From Nitrospirota bacterium (GTDB taxonomy: Bacteria > Nitrospirota > Nitrospiria > Nitrospirales > Nitrospiraceae), in assembly GCA_040755395.1 (NCBI GenBank), contig JBFMAX010000001.1:611186-675185 (forward strand): DNA of 64,000 nucleotides, in the 5' to 3' direction. The notes under the pieces are model-generated. The model made no database searches, was not told where the DNA came from, and saw only the letters and a list, made by a program, of their open reading frames with translations. Below are positions 1 to 8,467 of the stretch, one piece after another. A program made the position numbers and the translations under genes. Position 1 is the stretch's first letter. Every line of letters begins with the position of its first letter.

Positions 1-7
1 AGGAGAA

Positions 8-164
8 GGAAAAGGGGTCGGGAGTCTTTTGTTGTTGTGGGGTCAGAGGCTGGCTTCGGCTACCGCCTGGAAAGATTGTCGTTTTGGGGCTGTGAAGTAG
101 AGGGGGTTGCGACCGACGCCACCGTCTTCTGCTGAGCCGAGGAGAAAGACTCCCGACCCCTTTT
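8..164. repeat. Inverted pair of a 20-base REP-like word
   Basis: The word AAAGGGGTCGGGAGTCTTTT lies at 11-30 and its inverse AAAGACTCCCGACCCCTTTT at 145-164, enclosing 114 bases with no convincing gene. The same word recurs at 1938, 2065 and, inverted, at 2206. Short GC-rich words of this kind commonly accompany REP-associated transposases of the IS200/Y1 type. No such transposase gene is in the window, so that link is an inference. Confidence 0.6.
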
Positions 165-182
165 GTTCAGACCATGTTCTGA

Positions 183-665
183 TCAGGACGCCTTCAGTTC
201 GCCCAGCAGCCCAGCGATGGCCGCGCCGAGCGCAAGGTCGGTGGGTGTGCCGAACACCTGGCCCCGGCGTCTCCCCAATCCATCGATCAGAATGGTCGTA
301 GGGGTCCCGCGCATCTGATAGGCTCGCATCGTCATCGGGATCGGGTGGCCGTCCGTTGTCGGCTCATCAACCCCGATTGGGAACTTGATACGATACTCAT
401 GTAGGAATGCCTCCAGCGCCTCCGGGCCCATGACGCTATGATGCTCGAACACCGTATGCAGTCCCACCACCGCTACGGGCTCCTCATCGAACGCCTCGGC
501 CACGCGTTGGGCTTGGGGCAATCCGTGCGCCACACAGCCCGGACAGAGCATTTGAAAGGCATGTAGTACCACCACCCGACCACGAAAGTCGGCCAGGGTC
601 AGGGGTTCCTTCGCGTTGAACCAACGAATCGTGCGCCACTCCGGCGCTGGTCCTGACACGTTCAT
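183..665 (-). CDS. Redoxin / thioredoxin-fold protein with CPGC motif
   Basis: This is a 160-residue thioredoxin-fold protein of the AhpC/TSA-TlpA redoxin type. The dithiol motif is C41-P-G-C44, preceded by a beta strand (VVVLHAF). A cis-proline-like segment, RGTPTTILID, lies near residue 125, as expected for a thioredoxin active site. There is no signal peptide, so it probably acts in the cytoplasm as a thiol-disulfide reductase or peroxidase partner. I took the ATG at 665 because the nine extra residues from an ATG at 692 add nothing recognisable. It runs in the same direction as the protoglobin gene upstream, so the pair may form a small redox unit. The substrate cannot be read from the sequence. 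Confidence 0.75.
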   Translation of the reverse strand: MNVSGPAPEWRTIRWFNAKEPLTLADFRGRVVVLHAFQMLCPGCVAHGLPQAQRVAEAFDEEPVAVVGLHTVFEHHSVMGPEALEAFLHEYRIKFPIGVDEPTTDGHPIPMTMRAYQMRGTPTTILIDGLGRRRGQVFGTPTDLALGAAIAGLLGELKAS

Positions 666-839
666 CTGCCAGCCGGCTTGCCGTAGGAACATTCCGCGAC
701 CTCTCCGTCAATTCTGCGGTGGAGCTTCTGCCGCCGTGCGTGCGCTCGAGGTTGTCCCGGACTCGTCGACGGAACAGGGCCTCCAAATCTCGCTCCGGCT
801 GCGGCCGGGAGTAGCTCGCCCGCAGCCGGAGCGTTTCGA

Positions 840-1436
840 TCAGAAATCACCGGCTTTCACATACGGATGGCTCCACAGAATCGCCTGGAGCAGGCAGGAT
901 TTGAGCCACGCTTGATACATCTTCTCGACCTCCTCCGGCGAATGCCCCTTCTTCGCAAGAAACGGTTTCAGCGTGAAAGTGACAGGATAGATGAGCGCAA
1001 GGAGGTACCGGAACGGCACGTGGTCCGCCGCTGCAACATGGTCCGTCTGATTTTTCTTGGCCCGATGATGCCGGAGCCCGATTTCGTGCTGGTAGTCGAG
1101 CCATTTCTGGTCATACTCCGCCCGAGCCGTGTCCAAGATCCATTGGCCGAACCGCTTGCGCACGGCTGCCAGGTAGTCGTTGAGGGGCTTGCCATCATTC
1201 CGTCCCGTGAAGGCCGCCAACAGGTGCGGATGGTTCCCCACGAAGCCGTACCAAACATCGAGGATGGCCTCGACTTGGTCCTTGACGATGTCGTAGGATT
1301 GCCGCAGCGCCTTTGCATCGTCGTCGGTGAACAGCACGCTCTGCTTCATCAACTCGAAGTCCGCGTGACTCACCGGTGAACGCGGCACAGCCGCGGTGCC
1401 ATAGGTGTACCCGGGAATTGATGGTGTGTATGTCAT
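840..1436 (-). CDS. Protoglobin-family haem protein
   Basis: The 198-residue product looks like a single-domain protoglobin, the fold shared with globin-coupled sensors. It binds haem and may sense or detoxify O2, CO or NO. A helical core runs from about residue 25 to 195. The stretch HEIGLRHH (117-124) matches the F-helix region carrying the proximal histidine, and FRYLLALIYPVT lies near residue 145. No signalling domain is attached. The ATG at 1436 is chosen because AAAGGAGTG sits just upstream, although the frame stays open to 1850. An HxlR-type regulator is transcribed divergently about 130 bp away and is the likely controller. Protoglobins of about this length are common in Nitrospira-like genomes. 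Confidence 0.85.
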   Translation of the reverse strand: MTYTPSIPGYTYGTAAVPRSPVSHADFELMKQSVLFTDDDAKALRQSYDIVKDQVEAILDVWYGFVGNHPHLLAAFTGRNDGKPLNDYLAAVRKRFGQWILDTARAEYDQKWLDYQHEIGLRHHRAKKNQTDHVAAADHVPFRYLLALIYPVTFTLKPFLAKKGHSPEEVEKMYQAWLKSCLLQAILWSHPYVKAGDF

Positions 1437-1518
1437 AGCTTCACTCCTTTCATGAATGGATCGATCGCTGATGCCTGCTAGCGTGCACAACATCCCCTCT
1501 CTGCCGCAAGATCGCACC

Positions 1519-1550
1519 AATCGGTACCGAGGGCACCAAAAAGTACCGTG
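1519..1550. promoter_or_regulatory. Candidate operator between protoglobin and HxlR genes
   Basis: The divergent intergenic region contains the perfect 10-base palindrome TCGGTACCGA (1521-1530) and a second GTACCG half at 1543-1548. HxlR-type winged-helix regulators often bind GTAC-containing dyads in front of divergent genes. The location between such a regulator and its neighbour makes this the best operator candidate. No binding data are implied. Confidence 0.4.
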
Positions 1551-1563
1551 GGCCCGATCTGGC

Positions 1564-1899
1564 ATGGCTGGGCTTTCCGCCTCTGCGGAGGCACGCCCAA
1601 GCGTCGCCGCTATGGTCGAAGACGTGATCGGCTGCAAATGGACCGTTCGGCTCCTGTGGCTGTTGTCCGACAGGCTGGCCCGACCCAGTCGGTTGCTCAA
1701 GGCCTGTCCTGGCCTTTCGACCAAGGTGATGAACGAGCGCCTGCGGAAACTCACGCGCTTTGGGCTGCTCGACCGCCGGGTCCGCGGCGAGAAGCCGCCT
1801 GTTGTGGTCGAGTATCGCCTCACGCCGTTGGGGAGACGGTTTATGCGCATTTTGGCCGAGGTGAAGAAGCTTCAAGAGGAGTTGGATGCGCTTCTCTGA
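1564..1899 (+). CDS. HxlR-family transcriptional regulator
   Basis: This is a winged helix-turn-helix protein of the HxlR (MarR-like) family, about 111 residues from ATG 1564. The family signature is present: the IGCKWTVRLLWLL segment, the LSTKVMNERLRKL recognition region, and the wing VEYRLTPLGRRF. These proteins bind DNA as dimers and commonly answer redox, formaldehyde or quinone stress. The start is uncertain. ATG 1564 has a weak ribosome-binding site, an upstream ATG at 1456 would add 36 low-complexity residues, and ATG 1612 would still keep the core. It is divergent from the protoglobin gene and probably autoregulates from the shared region. The 3' end abuts a duplicated repeat block. 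Confidence 0.8.
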   Translation: MAGLSASAEARPSVAAMVEDVIGCKWTVRLLWLLSDRLARPSRLLKACPGLSTKVMNERLRKLTRFGLLDRRVRGEKPPVVVEYRLTPLGRRFMRILAEVKKLQEELDALL

Positions 1900-1930: not shown

Positions 1931-2184
1931 GAGCTGGAAAAGGGGTCGGGAGTCTTTGTTCGGCACCGCAAGTCCCCGCACACAAGGAATGCGGCGGAGG
2001 AGCGCAGTAGTTGGAATCGAGGTGCGTATGTTCTTTGGTGCGTCTCCTGTTTCCTTGGAGCTGGAAAAGGGGTCGGGAGTCTTTGTTCGGCACCGCAAGT
2101 CCCCGCACACAAGGAATGCGGCGGAGGAGCGCAGTAGTTGGAATCGAGGTGCGTATGTTCTTTGGTGCGTCTCCTGTTTCCTTG
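1931..2184. repeat. Perfect 127-bp tandem duplication carrying the REP-like word
   Basis: Bases 1931-2057 and 2058-2184 read as identical 127-bp copies in direct orientation. Each contains the 20-base word (at 1938 and 2065). An inverted copy of the word follows at 2206-2225, so the unit resembles a BIME-type REP cluster. The 498 bases between the HxlR gene and the CARF-HEPN gene hold only this block and the latter gene's leader. The open frame running through it is not credible as a protein because it reads the same repeated peptide twice. The copies are not a CRISPR array: there are no spacers and the unit is far too long. Confidence 0.85.
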
Positions 2185-2397: not shown

Positions 2398-3684
2398 ATG
2401 GCGAAGGCGTTCGTCCAATCCGTGGGCACTGGTACGCGACCGGACCAGGATATCACCCAGCCGCTCCTCTGGCATTGGAGGAAAAGCGGCGCCGGGTTTA
2501 CCGTGTGGATTGCGAGCGAGCAAAGCCGACCGTACGCCGAACGGATGGCACGGGACCTGGGGCTGCCACCCGACGCGCACACGATCCGGATTGTGAGCGA
2601 CCCAGACGACGTGGAAACTGTCTATCGCGAGTGTCTGACGCTGTTCCGTGACTTGAACCGACGCGGATTCGGGCCCGACACCATCGAGGTGGACTATACG
2701 AGTGGGACCAAAGCCATAACCGCCGGCTTGGTCTTGGCGGCCGTGACCCATCGGTGCGGGACGATAAGCTACATCAGTGGACAGCGCTTCGCCGGAACGG
2801 TCATCAGCGGGACCGAGCGCCTGGTGCTCATCGAACCCCGGCGGATCTGGGCTGACGAACAGTTGCGACTCGCGGGTGAATTCTGCCGGGTGCAGCGGTT
2901 CGATGCAGCCCTTCAACTCCTGGGCGACTTGAACCCGGCTTGGCTGGGCGACCACGAGCGGCGCCTTATGGAGGCGCTGACGGCGGTCGCCAACGGCTAC
3001 GGGGCCTGGGATCGGTTCGATTACGCGAGAGCCGCCGGTGAGTTGAACAAACTCTTCCATGCCGATGTGGAAGAAGCGAGGCCGTTTCGTCCAAACGCCG
3101 AGACTCCTGCGCGCTTGCTCGGCTTGAAGCCGGACACCGGCTACTCAGCCGACCGGCTGGCCGATCTTCTGAACAACGCCGGACGCCGGTTGGAGGAAGG
3201 GCGTTACGATGACGCGCTCGCTCGGCTGTATCGGCTCGCAGAGATGCTGGCGCAATGGATTTTACAGAAAGACTTTGGAATCGATACGGCTGCCGTGGAT
3301 CTCAGCAAGATCCCCGATCAGCTCCGCTCGGAGTTTGCCGCCACGGCCGCGTCCACGCGCGAAATTCAGATCGGCCTCGAGCGGGATTATCGGCTCCTGA
3401 AGGAACTGGGTCATCGGATCGGACACAAGTTCGACGAAGCGGAGTTTCGCGGGATCGGGGTGCTCCTCAAGAAGCGAAATGTCTCGCTCCTGGCGCACGG
3501 CCTCACTCCGATTTCCAAGGGCGATGTGGCGTCGCTGTACCAAAAACTGCGCGGCTTGGTCGCGTCCGAAGTGACGGATTTCGATGACCGGTGCGCCGAG
3601 CTGGAATTTCCATGGCGGCGCACGAGTCAACCTGGGAATTCCCCTCATCCTTGCCCTCTCCCCCCCGGGGAGAGGGAGAAGTAA
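2398..3684 (+). CDS. CARF-HEPN CRISPR ancillary ribonuclease (Cas02710/Csm6-like)
   Basis: The 428-residue protein resembles the Cas02710 (TIGR02710) family. The N-terminal CARF Rossmann domain starts SVGTGTRPDQDI, with the ligand-loop signature DYTSGTKAITAG near residues 100-112. The helical C-terminal half carries the HEPN RNase motif R360-N-V-S-L-L-A-H367 (R-x6-H). In characterised relatives, CARF binds cyclic oligoadenylate made by Cas10 and switches on HEPN RNA cleavage. ATG 2398 is fixed by AGGAGG at 2387-2392. The last roughly 15 residues are encoded by a GC-rich palindromic repeat and are probably not functional. The gene heads the cas operon 19 bases before cas2. No Cas10 is in the window, so any activating signal must come from elsewhere. 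Confidence 0.8.
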   Translation: MAKAFVQSVGTGTRPDQDITQPLLWHWRKSGAGFTVWIASEQSRPYAERMARDLGLPPDAHTIRIVSDPDDVETVYRECLTLFRDLNRRGFGPDTIEVDYTSGTKAITAGLVLAAVTHRCGTISYISGQRFAGTVISGTERLVLIEPRRIWADEQLRLAGEFCRVQRFDAALQLLGDLNPAWLGDHERRLMEALTAVANGYGAWDRFDYARAAGELNKLFHADVEEARPFRPNAETPARLLGLKPDTGYSADRLADLLNNAGRRLEEGRYDDALARLYRLAEMLAQWILQKDFGIDTAAVDLSKIPDQLRSEFAATAASTREIQIGLERDYRLLKELGHRIGHKFDEAEFRGIGVLLKKRNVSLLAHGLTPISKGDVASLYQKLRGLVASEVTDFDDRCAELEFPWRRTSQPGNSPHPCPLPPGEREK

Positions 3685-3703: not shown

Positions 3704-3982
3704 ATGCGGCGCTTGTATCTTGTCGCCTATGACGTCTGTGAGCCGAGCCGCCTGAACCGCGTGCGCGAGTTCCTCAAAGGCTACAGCACCGGCGGGCAGA
3801 AGTCGGTGTACGAGTGTTGGCTGTCGGGGACCGAATTCACCGAAGTGCTGGAGACGCTGCGCCGACTCATCGCGCCTGACGAGGACCGCATCCACGTCTT
3901 CGCGCTGGACGGCCGGAGCCGGCCCCAAACCCTGGGGATTGCGGTTCCGCCGTCGGACCCCGCATTCTTTTATTTCGGATAA
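3704..3982 (+). CDS. cas2: CRISPR-associated Cas2, first copy
   Basis: The 92-residue ferredoxin-like protein has the usual Cas2 length. The N-terminal strand LYLVAYDV carries the conserved aspartate near residue 10, and helix SRLNRVREFLKG follows. In known systems a Cas2 dimer holds two Cas1 dimers together during spacer capture. A ribosome-binding site (AGGAGCGAGG) precedes ATG 3704. The gene lies 19 bases after the CARF-HEPN gene and 15-18 bases before cas1. It differs clearly from the second Cas2 encoded at 5718, so the two are not a recent duplication. Confidence 0.9.
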   Translation: MRRLYLVAYDVCEPSRLNRVREFLKGYSTGGQKSVYECWLSGTEFTEVLETLRRLIAPDEDRIHVFALDGRSRPQTLGIAVPPSDPAFFYFG

Positions 3983-4000
3983 ACGTCATGGGAGTCTGTG

Positions 4001-4963
4001 ATGGGTGGAACGGTCTATCTGGATCGCAAGGATGCCGAACTCCGGCTCGACGGCGGGGCGCTGGCGGTCTACGCGAACGGCGAGCGCGAGGGAATGGTGC
4101 CGCTGGCGCCTGTGGACCGGGTCGTGCTGATCGGCAATCAGACCGTCCACACGTCCGTGCTGCATCGCCTGGCGGAGCAGGGCGTCGCGGTGTTGTTCCT
4201 CTCGGGACGCACGCAGGCCTTTCGCGGCCGCCTGGTCGGCCGCCTGCACAATCATGCGCGGCTGCGCTTGGCTCAGTACGCCGCACACCGTGGCCACCTG
4301 GCTTTCCTGCTGGCGAAGGAATGGGTGACGGCCAAGCTCGACGGGCAGGCGGGGCTGTTGCGCGAGGCCGCCGATGCGCGGCCGGATCAGCGAGCTCTCC
4401 TTCTGCGCACCGCCGAGAGCATCGACGACACCCGCGCCAAGGCCGCCGAGGCCGGCAACGTCGAGCGGCTGCGCGGGTTGGAAGGCGGAGCCGCCGCGGC
4501 CTACTTCGCCGCGCTGCCGGCCGTGTTTCCCCCGAGCCTCGGGTTTGAAGGACGGGAGCGGCGGCCTCCGCGCGATCCCGTGAACGCCCTCTTGTCGCTC
4601 ACGTATACGCTGGTGCACTGGGAGTGGGTGCGCGAATGCGAGCTGATCGGACTGGATCCGCTGGTCGGCTTCTATCACGAGCTCGAATACGGCCGCGAAT
4701 CGTTGGCCTGCGACCTCCTCGAGCCCTTTCGACCGGCCGTGGATCGATGGGTGTGGGAACTGTTCCGCACCCGGCGGTTCGAGCGTCGCGACTTTGCCTC
4801 GGACCAGGATCGGCCGGGCTGCTCGTTGAAGAAAAGCGCGCGCAGCCGATTCTATGCCGCCTACGAAGACTGGATCGCTCCGCACCGCTCGCGCATGCGG
4901 GAGACGGTCGAAACCTTGGCGCGGCGCATCCTGAGCCATGGAGAGAACGCTGTATCTGAATGA
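4001..4963 (+). CDS. cas1: CRISPR-associated integrase Cas1, catalytically complete
   Basis: The 320-residue Cas1 inserts new spacers into CRISPR arrays as part of Cas1-Cas2. It has the N-terminal beta-rich dimerisation domain (TVYLDRKDAELRL) and a C-terminal helical catalytic domain. The metal ligands are in place: E161 in RGLEGGAA, H226 in GFYHELEYGR, and D238/E241 in CDLLEPFRP. ATG 4001 is preferred to GTG 3998 because GGGAG lies six bases upstream. The 3' end overlaps the second Cas1-like gene by 26 bases, which implies coupled translation. Base composition matches the neighbourhood. There is no reverse-transcriptase or Cas4 fusion. Confidence 0.95.
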   Translation: MGGTVYLDRKDAELRLDGGALAVYANGEREGMVPLAPVDRVVLIGNQTVHTSVLHRLAEQGVAVLFLSGRTQAFRGRLVGRLHNHARLRLAQYAAHRGHLAFLLAKEWVTAKLDGQAGLLREAADARPDQRALLLRTAESIDDTRAKAAEAGNVERLRGLEGGAAAAYFAALPAVFPPSLGFEGRERRPPRDPVNALLSLTYTLVHWEWVRECELIGLDPLVGFYHELEYGRESLACDLLEPFRPAVDRWVWELFRTRRFERRDFASDQDRPGCSLKKSARSRFYAAYEDWIAPHRSRMRETVETLARRILSHGENAVSE

Positions 4964-5714
4964 GTCGCCCGGGCTGCGGGTCCGCCGTGACGGTCCGTCG
5001 TTGTGGATCGAGCGACGCCGGACCGCTGGGCAGCGGGTGCCGGTCCGCCTGATTCGCCGCGTGCTCATCGCGGGCAATGTCGCGTTGGACACTGAGAGCC
5101 TGACAGCCTTCGCCGAGCGCGGGGTCCCAATCACCCTGCTGAATCGGGCGGGCGAGCCCGTGGCGGTGGTCCTGGGGTGCGCAGCGGGGCTGTTCGCCCG
5201 GCGGGGCCGACAGGCGGCGGCCCTCGAAGATCCCCGGCAACGGGACCGCCTGTGCGCATGGCTGCGGGCATGGGAACGCGGGCGCCGGTTGGTCCTGGCC
5301 TCCCGCCTCGATCCCGTCACGGCGGCGCGGTGGCGGCGTGAAGGCATGCGGCCGGCGGACTATGACACCTGGATCGAGCGGCAAGCCCGGCTGCGCGGCG
5401 TGTCCCTTCGGCGGCGCGGATTTTTCCGGGCGGCGCTGCAGACTTTGGCCTTGGAGGCGATCTTGGAGGCGGGGTGGGACCCTCACCTGGGCTGGCTGCA
5501 CCGAGCCCAGCCGTTGGGATTCGTGCGAGATTGCGTCGCGGCGCTGCAGGCCGACGCCGATCTCGCCTGGTTGGACAGCGGAGCGGCGGCCGGTGACGGC
5601 ATCGGGGCGCTGCCGCGGGCGTTGGCCGGGCATTTCGAATCCCGTCGCCCGCGCTTGGCGACGCTGCTGCGCCGGCTGCTCGACCAGTTCGCCGTCATGA
5701 TCTGGGAACCGTGA
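4938..5714 (+). CDS. Degenerate second Cas1 (Cas1'), probably catalytically inactive
   Basis: This 258-residue protein reads as a shortened Cas1. The N terminus ERTLYLNESPGLRVRRDG repeats the Cas1 opening, followed by the expected strands (VPVRLIRRVLIAGN, GVPITLLNRAGEPV). The helical domain has GWLH188 aligned with the Cas1 metal histidine and RD198CVA201 aligned with the D-x-x-E motif. By my alignment the last glutamate is alanine, and the first catalytic glutamate is missing: the RGLEGGAA region reads RGVSLRRRG. It therefore appears unable to bind both metals. It is arginine-rich. Position between cas1 and a second cas2, with overlapping or near-touching ends, suggests that it is maintained as a structural partner in the integrase rather than being debris. 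Confidence 0.75.
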   Translation: MERTLYLNESPGLRVRRDGPSLWIERRRTAGQRVPVRLIRRVLIAGNVALDTESLTAFAERGVPITLLNRAGEPVAVVLGCAAGLFARRGRQAAALEDPRQRDRLCAWLRAWERGRRLVLASRLDPVTAARWRREGMRPADYDTWIERQARLRGVSLRRRGFFRAALQTLALEAILEAGWDPHLGWLHRAQPLGFVRDCVAALQADADLAWLDSGAAAGDGIGALPRALAGHFESRRPRLATLLRRLLDQFAVMIWEP

Positions 5715-5717
5715 CCG

Positions 5718-5996
5718 ATGCGGACACGCTATCTCGTGTGCTACGACATCGCCGACGAGGGCCGGCTGACCCGCGTGTATCGGTACATGAAGGGCGTCGG
5801 GGTGCATGTGCAATATTCCGTCTTCCTGTGCTCGTTCACCTGGCCGGAGCTGCAGGGAGTCGTGTCTCGGTTGAACGACTTGATCGACGCGAAGGCGGAC
5901 GATGTACGCATCTATCCCCTTCCATCGGGCGACACGATCACCGCGCTGGGCTGCGGGGACCGGTTGCCTAAGGGCGCAACCGTGGTGCTCCCGTGA
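5718..5996 (+). CDS. cas2: CRISPR-associated Cas2, second copy
   Basis: This is a second complete 92-residue Cas2 with the core strand RYLVCYDI and its conserved aspartate at residue 10. The helix GRLTRVYRYMKGVG and the strand HVQYSVFLCSF follow. It starts three bases after cas1' ends and its stop overlaps the cas6 start by four bases, so it is embedded in the operon. Its sequence diverges strongly from the first Cas2. A plausible arrangement is that each Cas2 serves a different Cas1, or that the two form a heterodimer. That is inference. Confidence 0.9.
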   Translation: MRTRYLVCYDIADEGRLTRVYRYMKGVGVHVQYSVFLCSFTWPELQGVVSRLNDLIDAKADDVRIYPLPSGDTITALGCGDRLPKGATVVLP

Positions 5997-7003
5997 GCGA
6001 GATGCCTGACAACGCGGATCCGGGCCGGACCTCCCTGCCGCTTTCGTTCGGCCGGTTCACGATTGCGCTCAAGCCGGACGCGGCGCTCCCGCTCCCGCCT
6101 TACGCCGGCTCCATGTTCCGCGGCGCCTTCGGTCTCGCGCTCCAACGGGTCGTCTGCGCGACCCGTACGTACGAATGCTCCCCTTGTCCGCTGAGGGATC
6201 GCTGTGTGTATCCGTACGTGTTCGAGACTCCGCCGCCCCCGGACACACGGGTGATGCGCAAGTACCCGGCCGCTCCTCATCCCTTCGTGCTCGAGCCGCC
6301 GGCGGGCGGGCGAACACTGGGGCCGGGCGAAGCCTTCGAGCTCGGCCTCACCCTATTCGGCCGCGCGGTGCGCTGGCTCCCGCATTTCATTTTTACCTTC
6401 GAACGCATGGGCCGGGTCGGTTTCGGCTTCCGCCGGGTAACCGCGATGGTCATCGGAGCCAACGGGTGGGTGGATGGGCGATTTTGCCGAATCTATTCCG
6501 CGGAGGAAGGCACGCTCGCTGGAACCGAGTCGTGTACTCGGACCGTCTACCTGCCGCTCCACCCGCCGGCCGGCGTGGCCAACGGCCACACCAACGAGCG
6601 GGCGGAGATCGAATTCCTCACTCCGGTGCGGGTGAAGTACGGCGAGCGCTTGGCCGCATCCCTGGAGTTTCATGTCCTGGTCCGCGCGTTGCTCCGGCGG
6701 ATCGCCCATCTCTCGTATTTCCATTGCGGCGGCGATCCGTCGGTGGTCGCGTTTCGCGAGTGGATCGACCTGGCGCGTTCGGTGCGGACCGTCTCATCCA
6801 CGCTCGTCTGGTACGACTGGACCCGCTACTCGCAGCGCCGGCAGGAGACGATGCAGCTCGGCGGGTTGTTCGGTCGGGTGACCTTCGAGGGCTCTCTCGG
6901 CCCGTTCATGCCTCTCTTACGGTTGGGCGAAGTGACCCATGTCGGGAAGGCGACGAGTTTCGGTCTGGGACAGTATCGCCTACTCGACGCAACTCCGCGC
7001 TGA
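5993..7003 (+). CDS. cas6: Cas6-family pre-crRNA endoribonuclease
   Basis: The 336-residue protein matches the RAMP-type Cas6 family whose C-terminal domain is seen in many type I and III loci. It cuts CRISPR transcripts inside repeats. Features include SFGRFTIAL at the start, YAGSMFRGAFGLAL, a cysteine cluster (CSPCPLRDRC, about residues 62-71), and the C-terminal RAMP glycine-rich segment VTHVGKATSFGLGQYRL. A single catalytic residue cannot be assigned by eye because Cas6 active sites vary. It overlaps cas2' by four bases and ends the operon, converging on htrA. No repeat array for it to process is visible in this window. Confidence 0.85.
   Translation: MSEMPDNADPGRTSLPLSFGRFTIALKPDAALPLPPYAGSMFRGAFGLALQRVVCATRTYECSPCPLRDRCVYPYVFETPPPPDTRVMRKYPAAPHPFVLEPPAGGRTLGPGEAFELGLTLFGRAVRWLPHFIFTFERMGRVGFGFRRVTAMVIGANGWVDGRFCRIYSAEEGTLAGTESCTRTVYLPLHPPAGVANGHTNERAEIEFLTPVRVKYGERLAASLEFHVLVRALLRRIAHLSYFHCGGDPSVVAFREWIDLARSVRTVSSTLVWYDWTRYSQRRQETMQLGGLFGRVTFEGSLGPFMPLLRLGEVTHVGKATSFGLGQYRLLDATPR

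Positions 7004-7024: not shown

Positions 7025-8467
<1,443 letters not shown>

Follow-up and report, generated by a model that had tools for sequence, protein, structure and literature searches.

The DNA analysed here, referred to below as the window, is a 64,000-nucleotide (nt) stretch (G000:C1:611186-675185) of a 4.1-Mb Nitrospirota genome whose named close relatives are Nitrospira metagenome-assembled genomes (MAGs), and it carries a CRISPR operon in which both adaptation genes, cas1 and cas2, are present in two diverged copies. According to the list of open reading frames (ORFs) and profile searches, the gene order is csx1, cas2, cas1, cas1′, cas2′ and cas6, all on the + strand. The first gene (2398..3684, with an ATG start at 2398) encodes a csx1/csm6-type CARF-HEPN effector (TIGR02710, 190 bits; Pfam Csm6 HEPN, 107 bits). 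It is followed by the first cas2 (3704..3982; Pfam CRISPR_Cas2, 58.7 bits; TIGR01573, 39.5 bits) and by a catalytically complete cas1 (4001..4963; Pfam, 260 bits over the full length; TIGR00287, 206 bits), for which the ATG at 4001 gives a protein of 320 amino acids (aa), while the ORF list puts a GTG start at 3998. The second Cas1-like gene, cas1′ (4938..5714, 258 aa), overlaps cas1 by 26 nt and is separated by a 3-nt gap from the second cas2 (cas2′, 5718..5996; Pfam, 63.1 bits), which in turn overlaps by 4 nt the gene for the CRISPR RNA-processing endoribonuclease Cas6 (5993..7003; Pfam CRISPR_Cas6, 74.7 bits; PADLOC Cas6, 330 bits). An Rfam search added nothing at the cas2-cas1-cas1′-cas2′-cas6 locus. 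An earlier note on this DNA, made from its letters and ORFs, had given the coordinates, overlaps and residue numbers of these genes, all of which agree with the ORF list and our alignment, and had described two very different Cas2 proteins of 92 residues each, which indeed share only 29% identity.

The operon lies in a type III setting, as the adaptation genes at the window's own locus are linked to cas10 and to a set of type III RAMP genes. The type III-B effector operon is located to the left of the window (G000:C1 ~599.8-607.3 kb) and encodes Cmr2/Cas10 (1027 aa), Cmr3, Cmr4 and Cmr6. No CRISPR array was found inside the 64-kb window, and one adjoins its left edge (G000:C1 ~609.3-610.85 kb), with 22 copies of a 36-nt repeat and 21 spacers of 31-39 nt. 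Among the many relatives described below, Cas10 is usually encoded on the same contig as the four-gene cassette (cas2, cas1, cas1′ and cas2′) where contigs are long, and the cassette also accompanies III-A effectors, as at locus L088 (Csm1, 3, 4, 5). The arrays that adjoin the cassette share one common 36-nt repeat family, and their spacers average mostly 33-37 nt, with a standard deviation of about 2.

Cas1′ is a true Cas1 paralogue. It matches the Pfam Cas1 family PF01867 with 51.3 bits (cut-off 22.3), through residues 10-103 only, and scores 42 bits with TIGR00287, which is under the cut-off of 71.7; the kinship with Cas1 proposed in the earlier note is thus borne out by the first model and falls short in the second. 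A model of Cas1′ was built with AlphaFold (AF2) from 17 relatives as input (predicted local distance difference test score, pLDDT, 90.3; predicted template modelling score, pTM, 0.89). This model is superimposable on T. maritima Cas1 (4xtk_B) with a Z-score of 23.6 and a root-mean-square deviation (rmsd) of 2.8 over 252 residues, and predicts a full Cas1 fold with an N-terminal beta domain and a C-terminal helical domain. Casposases and Cas1-solo proteins are encoded away from arrays and cas2, or together with PolB and terminal repeats; cas1′ lies between cas1 and cas2′, near arrays.

The active site was compared in 42 distinct partner Cas1 and 43 distinct Cas1′ sequences. The window Cas1 has E161, H226, D238 and E241, and these four positions (E, H, D, E), which are needed for a catalytically competent integrase, are invariant in 42/42 partner Cas1s. 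In the window Cas1′, by contrast, the alignment leaves H188 and D198, places A201 at the last glutamate and finds no counterpart of the first. The degeneracy reported earlier extends to nearly all members of the family: the first-Glu column holds random residues, and the last-Glu position is E in only 2 of the 43, being otherwise Y, H, M or another residue. As for the histidine and aspartate that were said to be kept, both are present in the window protein and the aspartate (D198) is found in 42/43 sequences, but the histidine remains in only 24/43. Cas1′ has invariant or near-invariant residues of its own, namely an RDGPS turn, P35, P64, Q92, Y142, a DPHxG motif, D198 and E234, and within the family its N-terminal domain (identity 0.49) is better conserved than its C-terminal domain (0.28), as compared with 0.56 and 0.52 in Cas1. 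D181, P182, G185, D198 and E234 are conserved, unlike the catalytic His and Glu, and this might indicate that the site was remodelled around D198 for another DNA-handling activity, such as recognition of a fork or of the protospacer-adjacent motif (PAM), or prespacer trimming. We regard this as highly improbable, as no known nuclease motif is present and the conserved positions may be structural.

Cas1′ is found in ~50 genomes, counted at species level, of Nitrospirota and Desulfobacterota. A scan of the genome collection yielded 16 loci, and whole-genome scans gave ~37 Nitrospirota genomes and about a dozen Desulfobacterota-type genomes, with two strongly diverged members recognised by inspection (L127 and L132) included. 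The order cas2-cas1-cas1′-cas2′ on one strand was seen in 35 distinct loci, these being the loci, from both phyla, for which all four genes were available, and the cassette usually adjoins type III genes and an array. The cas1/cas1′ overlap is exactly 26 nt in 27/48 loci. The operon block is therefore not a chance arrangement, being conserved in dozens of genomes, and the gene order first noticed in the window, with Cas1′ paired with the second Cas2 and the catalytic acids lost, recurs across species. Three very diverged Cas1′ proteins (L127 10131-10961, L132 6788-7561 and L172 8589-9371) are still encoded between cas1 and cas2′; only their N-terminal domain is recognisable, and generic Cas1 models give them only 20-34 bits. 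In Nitrospira, 10-13 kb of inserted DNA lies between csx1-cas2 and cas1-cas1′-cas2′-cas6, with all genes retained. The apparent loss of the first cas2 in Nitrospira was ruled out on this basis, as the insertion had displaced cas2 beyond the stretch examined. In two Desulfobacterota (L168 and L169), two genes intervene between cas2-cas1 and cas1′-cas2′, and the latter pair still adjoins. The constant adjacency of cas1′ and cas2′, which stay joined when cas1 has moved off, together with the dead site of Cas1′, would suit a separate, non-integrating Cas1′-Cas2′ complex that regulates adaptation, either as a decoy or brake or as a platform from which Cas1-Cas2 or the type III effector receives fragments. 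This seems to us quite unlikely, because Cas1′ has the complete Cas1 fold, its dimerisation domain is conserved, and an intact linked Cas1 is always present where the locus is long enough to tell; in addition, the translational overlap of cas1 and cas1′ suggests stoichiometric assembly with Cas1. The genome contains two further cas1 genes, at G000:C5:98777-99625 (L001, L018), in a 570-aa frame comparable in length to Cas4-Cas1 fusions, and at G000:C1:225601-226458 (L003, L019), in a 445-aa frame; both have their own arrays with other repeats, and neither has a Cas1′.

In a rapidly built tree, in which some branches are long, all 29 sampled Cas1′ sequences form one clade (Shimodaira-Hasegawa-like approximate likelihood ratio test, SH-aLRT, 100), and their partner Cas1s are separate from the remaining Cas1s of their phylum. 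Cas2 and Cas2′ likewise form separate clades (the ‘cas2’ and ‘cas2p’ clades, with support of 98 and 97), which are less sure as they are derived from few columns. The separate clades of Cas1′, Cas2 and Cas2′ indicate that the four-gene cassette is old and that each paralogue has a single origin. Pairwise distances of Cas1 and Cas1′ are correlated (r 0.88, reached by 0/5000 permutations), as expected under co-inheritance.

Structural comparisons provide clues to the role of Cas1′. The earlier note had contrasted Cas1′ with normal integrases made of identical active subunits, a view that needs correcting, since there is already one catalytic subunit per dimer (PMC6395717, PMC6977970, PMC12259127, PMC8102632). 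Ordinary Cas1 dimers are asymmetric, with one copy catalytic and the other not, in casposase (PMC6977970), P. aeruginosa (PMC12259127) and RT-Cas1, a reverse transcriptase (RT) fusion (PMC8102632), and in E. coli Cas2 contacts only the non-catalytic Cas1b (PMC6395717). A dead Cas1′ therefore need not alter the chemistry, and by analogy its loss of activity can be read as a division of labour. In a Foldseek comparison with casposase 6OPM, the Cas1′ model gave template modelling (TM) scores of 0.69 for chain A, 0.67 for chain C and 0.42 for chain B; chains A and C are non-catalytic, and B and D are catalytic (PMC6977970). Within the RT-Cas1 entries, the model matches best the complete protomers 7KFT_E and 7KFU_C; from the text of PMC8102632 we deduce that both are non-catalytic Cas1b protomers. 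The homodimers 4XTK and 2YZS showed the same two-conformer split. The predicted domain orientation of Cas1′ thus fits the non-catalytic protomer, which is suggestive, not decisive.

We consider it probable that Cas1′ is a dedicated non-catalytic subunit, and that the integrase of this type III-B CRISPR-Cas system is a heteromer of Cas1, Cas1′, Cas2 and Cas2′. Cas1 would be the catalytic subunit of the spacer integrase. Cas1′ has lost the active site and keeps the N-terminal beta domain, through which known Cas1s dimerise, along with a rigid helical domain at the C-terminus; it would pair with Cas1 as Cas1:Cas1′ and fill the place that the idle identical copy occupies in ordinary integrases, where that copy contacts Cas2. 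A Cas2/Cas2′ dimer may be clamped between two heterodimers of this kind, and each end of the captured DNA fragment would then keep exactly one active site. It is a tentative and rather doubtful extension of this proposal that the four subunits form an obligate integrase, asymmetric by sequence, whose proteins distinguish the fragment ends and so give type III spacers a built-in polarity. A related possibility is an integrase with an obligate Cas2-Cas2′ heterodimer and unlike ends, for example an active-Cas1 end and a Cas1′-bearing end, with a fixed direction of integration or only one enzymatic strand transfer. Both Cas2 paralogues are in ancient separate clades and are kept even in split blocks, and cas2-cas1 and cas1′-cas2′ are separate gene pairs in two Desulfobacterota, as this possibility would predict; yet the ordinary arrays, with their 36-nt repeats and regular spacers, need both strand transfers with measured spacing, and an end made solely of dead Cas1′ could not perform the second transfer. 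We therefore think an integrase of this kind fairly unlikely. What can be read from the regular arrays is limited to the occurrence of both strand transfers. The earlier note had proposed heterodimers of Cas1 and Cas1′ and, as their consequence, an oriented or asymmetric integration of spacers; the paired duplication of Cas2 might make the complex as a whole asymmetric and in this way orient integration.

Several observations weigh against a dedicated structural role for Cas1′. A control model of the same-operon Cas1 (pTM 0.77) has an rmsd of ~10 to all chains and fits neither conformer well, so the conformer argument comes from Cas1′ by itself, modelled as an unbound AF2 monomer. The correlation of Cas1 and Cas1′ distances also follows from linkage alone. 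Moreover, genome G054 (L130 6446-8190) has cas2-cas1-cas2′ and an array of the same repeat kind and no cas1′, which shows that Cas1′ can be dispensed with; its absence there looks like a secondary loss, judging from the position of the G054 Cas1 within the partner clade. One Desulfobacterota cas1′ (G496) contains an in-frame TAG, and one Thermodesulfovibrio-like locus (L096) holds only a 170-aa fragment. Together with the missing catalytic residues, these three cases are what might be expected if Cas1′ were a functionless decaying duplicate, which we find hardly credible. Like cas1, cas1′ is under purifying selection, with a ratio of nonsynonymous to synonymous substitution rates (dN/dS) of 0.07-0.17 between close relatives, equal to that of cas1; RDGPS, P35, P64, G185 and E234 are invariant across two phyla; and full-length frames are present in ~50 genomes. 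The case in which Cas1′ is a pseudogene, broken or absent in relatives, had been raised in the earlier note as one that would undo its proposal, and is ruled out by the dN/dS values and the deep conservation.

The proposed heteromer can be compared with several known systems. Canonical Cas1-Cas2 (E. coli type I-E and others) has in common with it the Cas1 fold, the Cas2 bridge and a catalytic and a non-catalytic position per dimer (PMC6395717, PMC12259127), but there a single cas1 product fills both positions with one Cas2, whereas here two diverged genes of each are present and one Cas1 has no active site. The casposase tetramer (M. mazei, 6OPM) shares the functionally asymmetric Cas1 dimers, with the Cas1′ model fitting its non-catalytic chains; unlike the Cas1′ module, it is a homotetramer of one active protein, has no Cas2 and is a transposase. 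Cas6-RT-Cas1/Cas2 (7KFT, 7KFU) is also a type III adaptation module with a non-catalytic Cas1b, to which the best-matching chains correspond, but it is built from one fused protein with no dead Cas1 paralogue or second Cas2 described, and the window cassette is without RT. The PADLOC family PDLC01185, ‘Cas1, diverged variant, second in the loci’, is likewise a diverged Cas1 in the second position of its locus. It is the best model for the cousins L172 (60 bits) and L132 (50 bits), both inside the Cas1′ clade, so the cousin branch had already been noticed and catalogued by the PADLOC curators. The window Cas1′ scores 19.5 bits with PDLC01185 and 51.3 bits with PDLC01608, and PDLC01185 was not the best model for the other members tested individually; identity of Cas1′ with the PDLC01185 family as such is thereby ruled out for the window protein and holds only for these two cousins. 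The earlier statement that no example had been described consequently stands in part: PADLOC-DB 2.0.0 covers the cousin branch, while a search of the open-access literature for two-Cas1 or heterodimeric Cas1 systems found no paper on such a module and no functional description of PDLC01185. The module described here would be a CRISPR integrase variant that has a dead Cas1 paralogue as a dedicated subunit, together with a second Cas2.

Since one polypeptide serves as both the catalytic and the structural Cas1 in known integrases, mutation cannot separate the two roles; here they would be carried by two genes. With such a split, the part played by the non-catalytic Cas1 in Cas2 clamping, length measuring, fork sensing and the choice of orientation could be tested directly, and so could the way in which type III systems fix spacer direction. 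The cas2-cas1-cas2′ arrangement of L130 could be used for comparison as a natural deletion of cas1′. From an evolutionary perspective, the cassette would represent a one-time transition from homomer to heteromer in the CRISPR adaptation complex, retained across two phyla.

The surroundings of the operon show some further features. A DegP/HtrA protease gene lies 3′ of cas6 in the window (7025-8467), in G011 (L016 10859-12382), in G007 (L017) and in Nitrospira G712 (L176 6448-7968), so the CRISPR locus occupies one chromosomal site in these genomes. Between the array and csx1, the translations of window 183-692 (-), 840-1850 (-) and 1456-1899 (+) resemble, by reading of the sequences, a redoxin, a protoglobin and an HxlR-type regulator; these genes are not at the corresponding place in G011 (L016). 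A tandem direct repeat of 127 nt, in two identical copies, occupies window 1931-2184. Finally, a dispersed element, ‘GGAAAAGGGGTCGGGAGTCTTT’, occurs at window 2-29 and 143-164/2204-2225, and is also found directly 3′ of the last CRISPR repeat to the left of the window.

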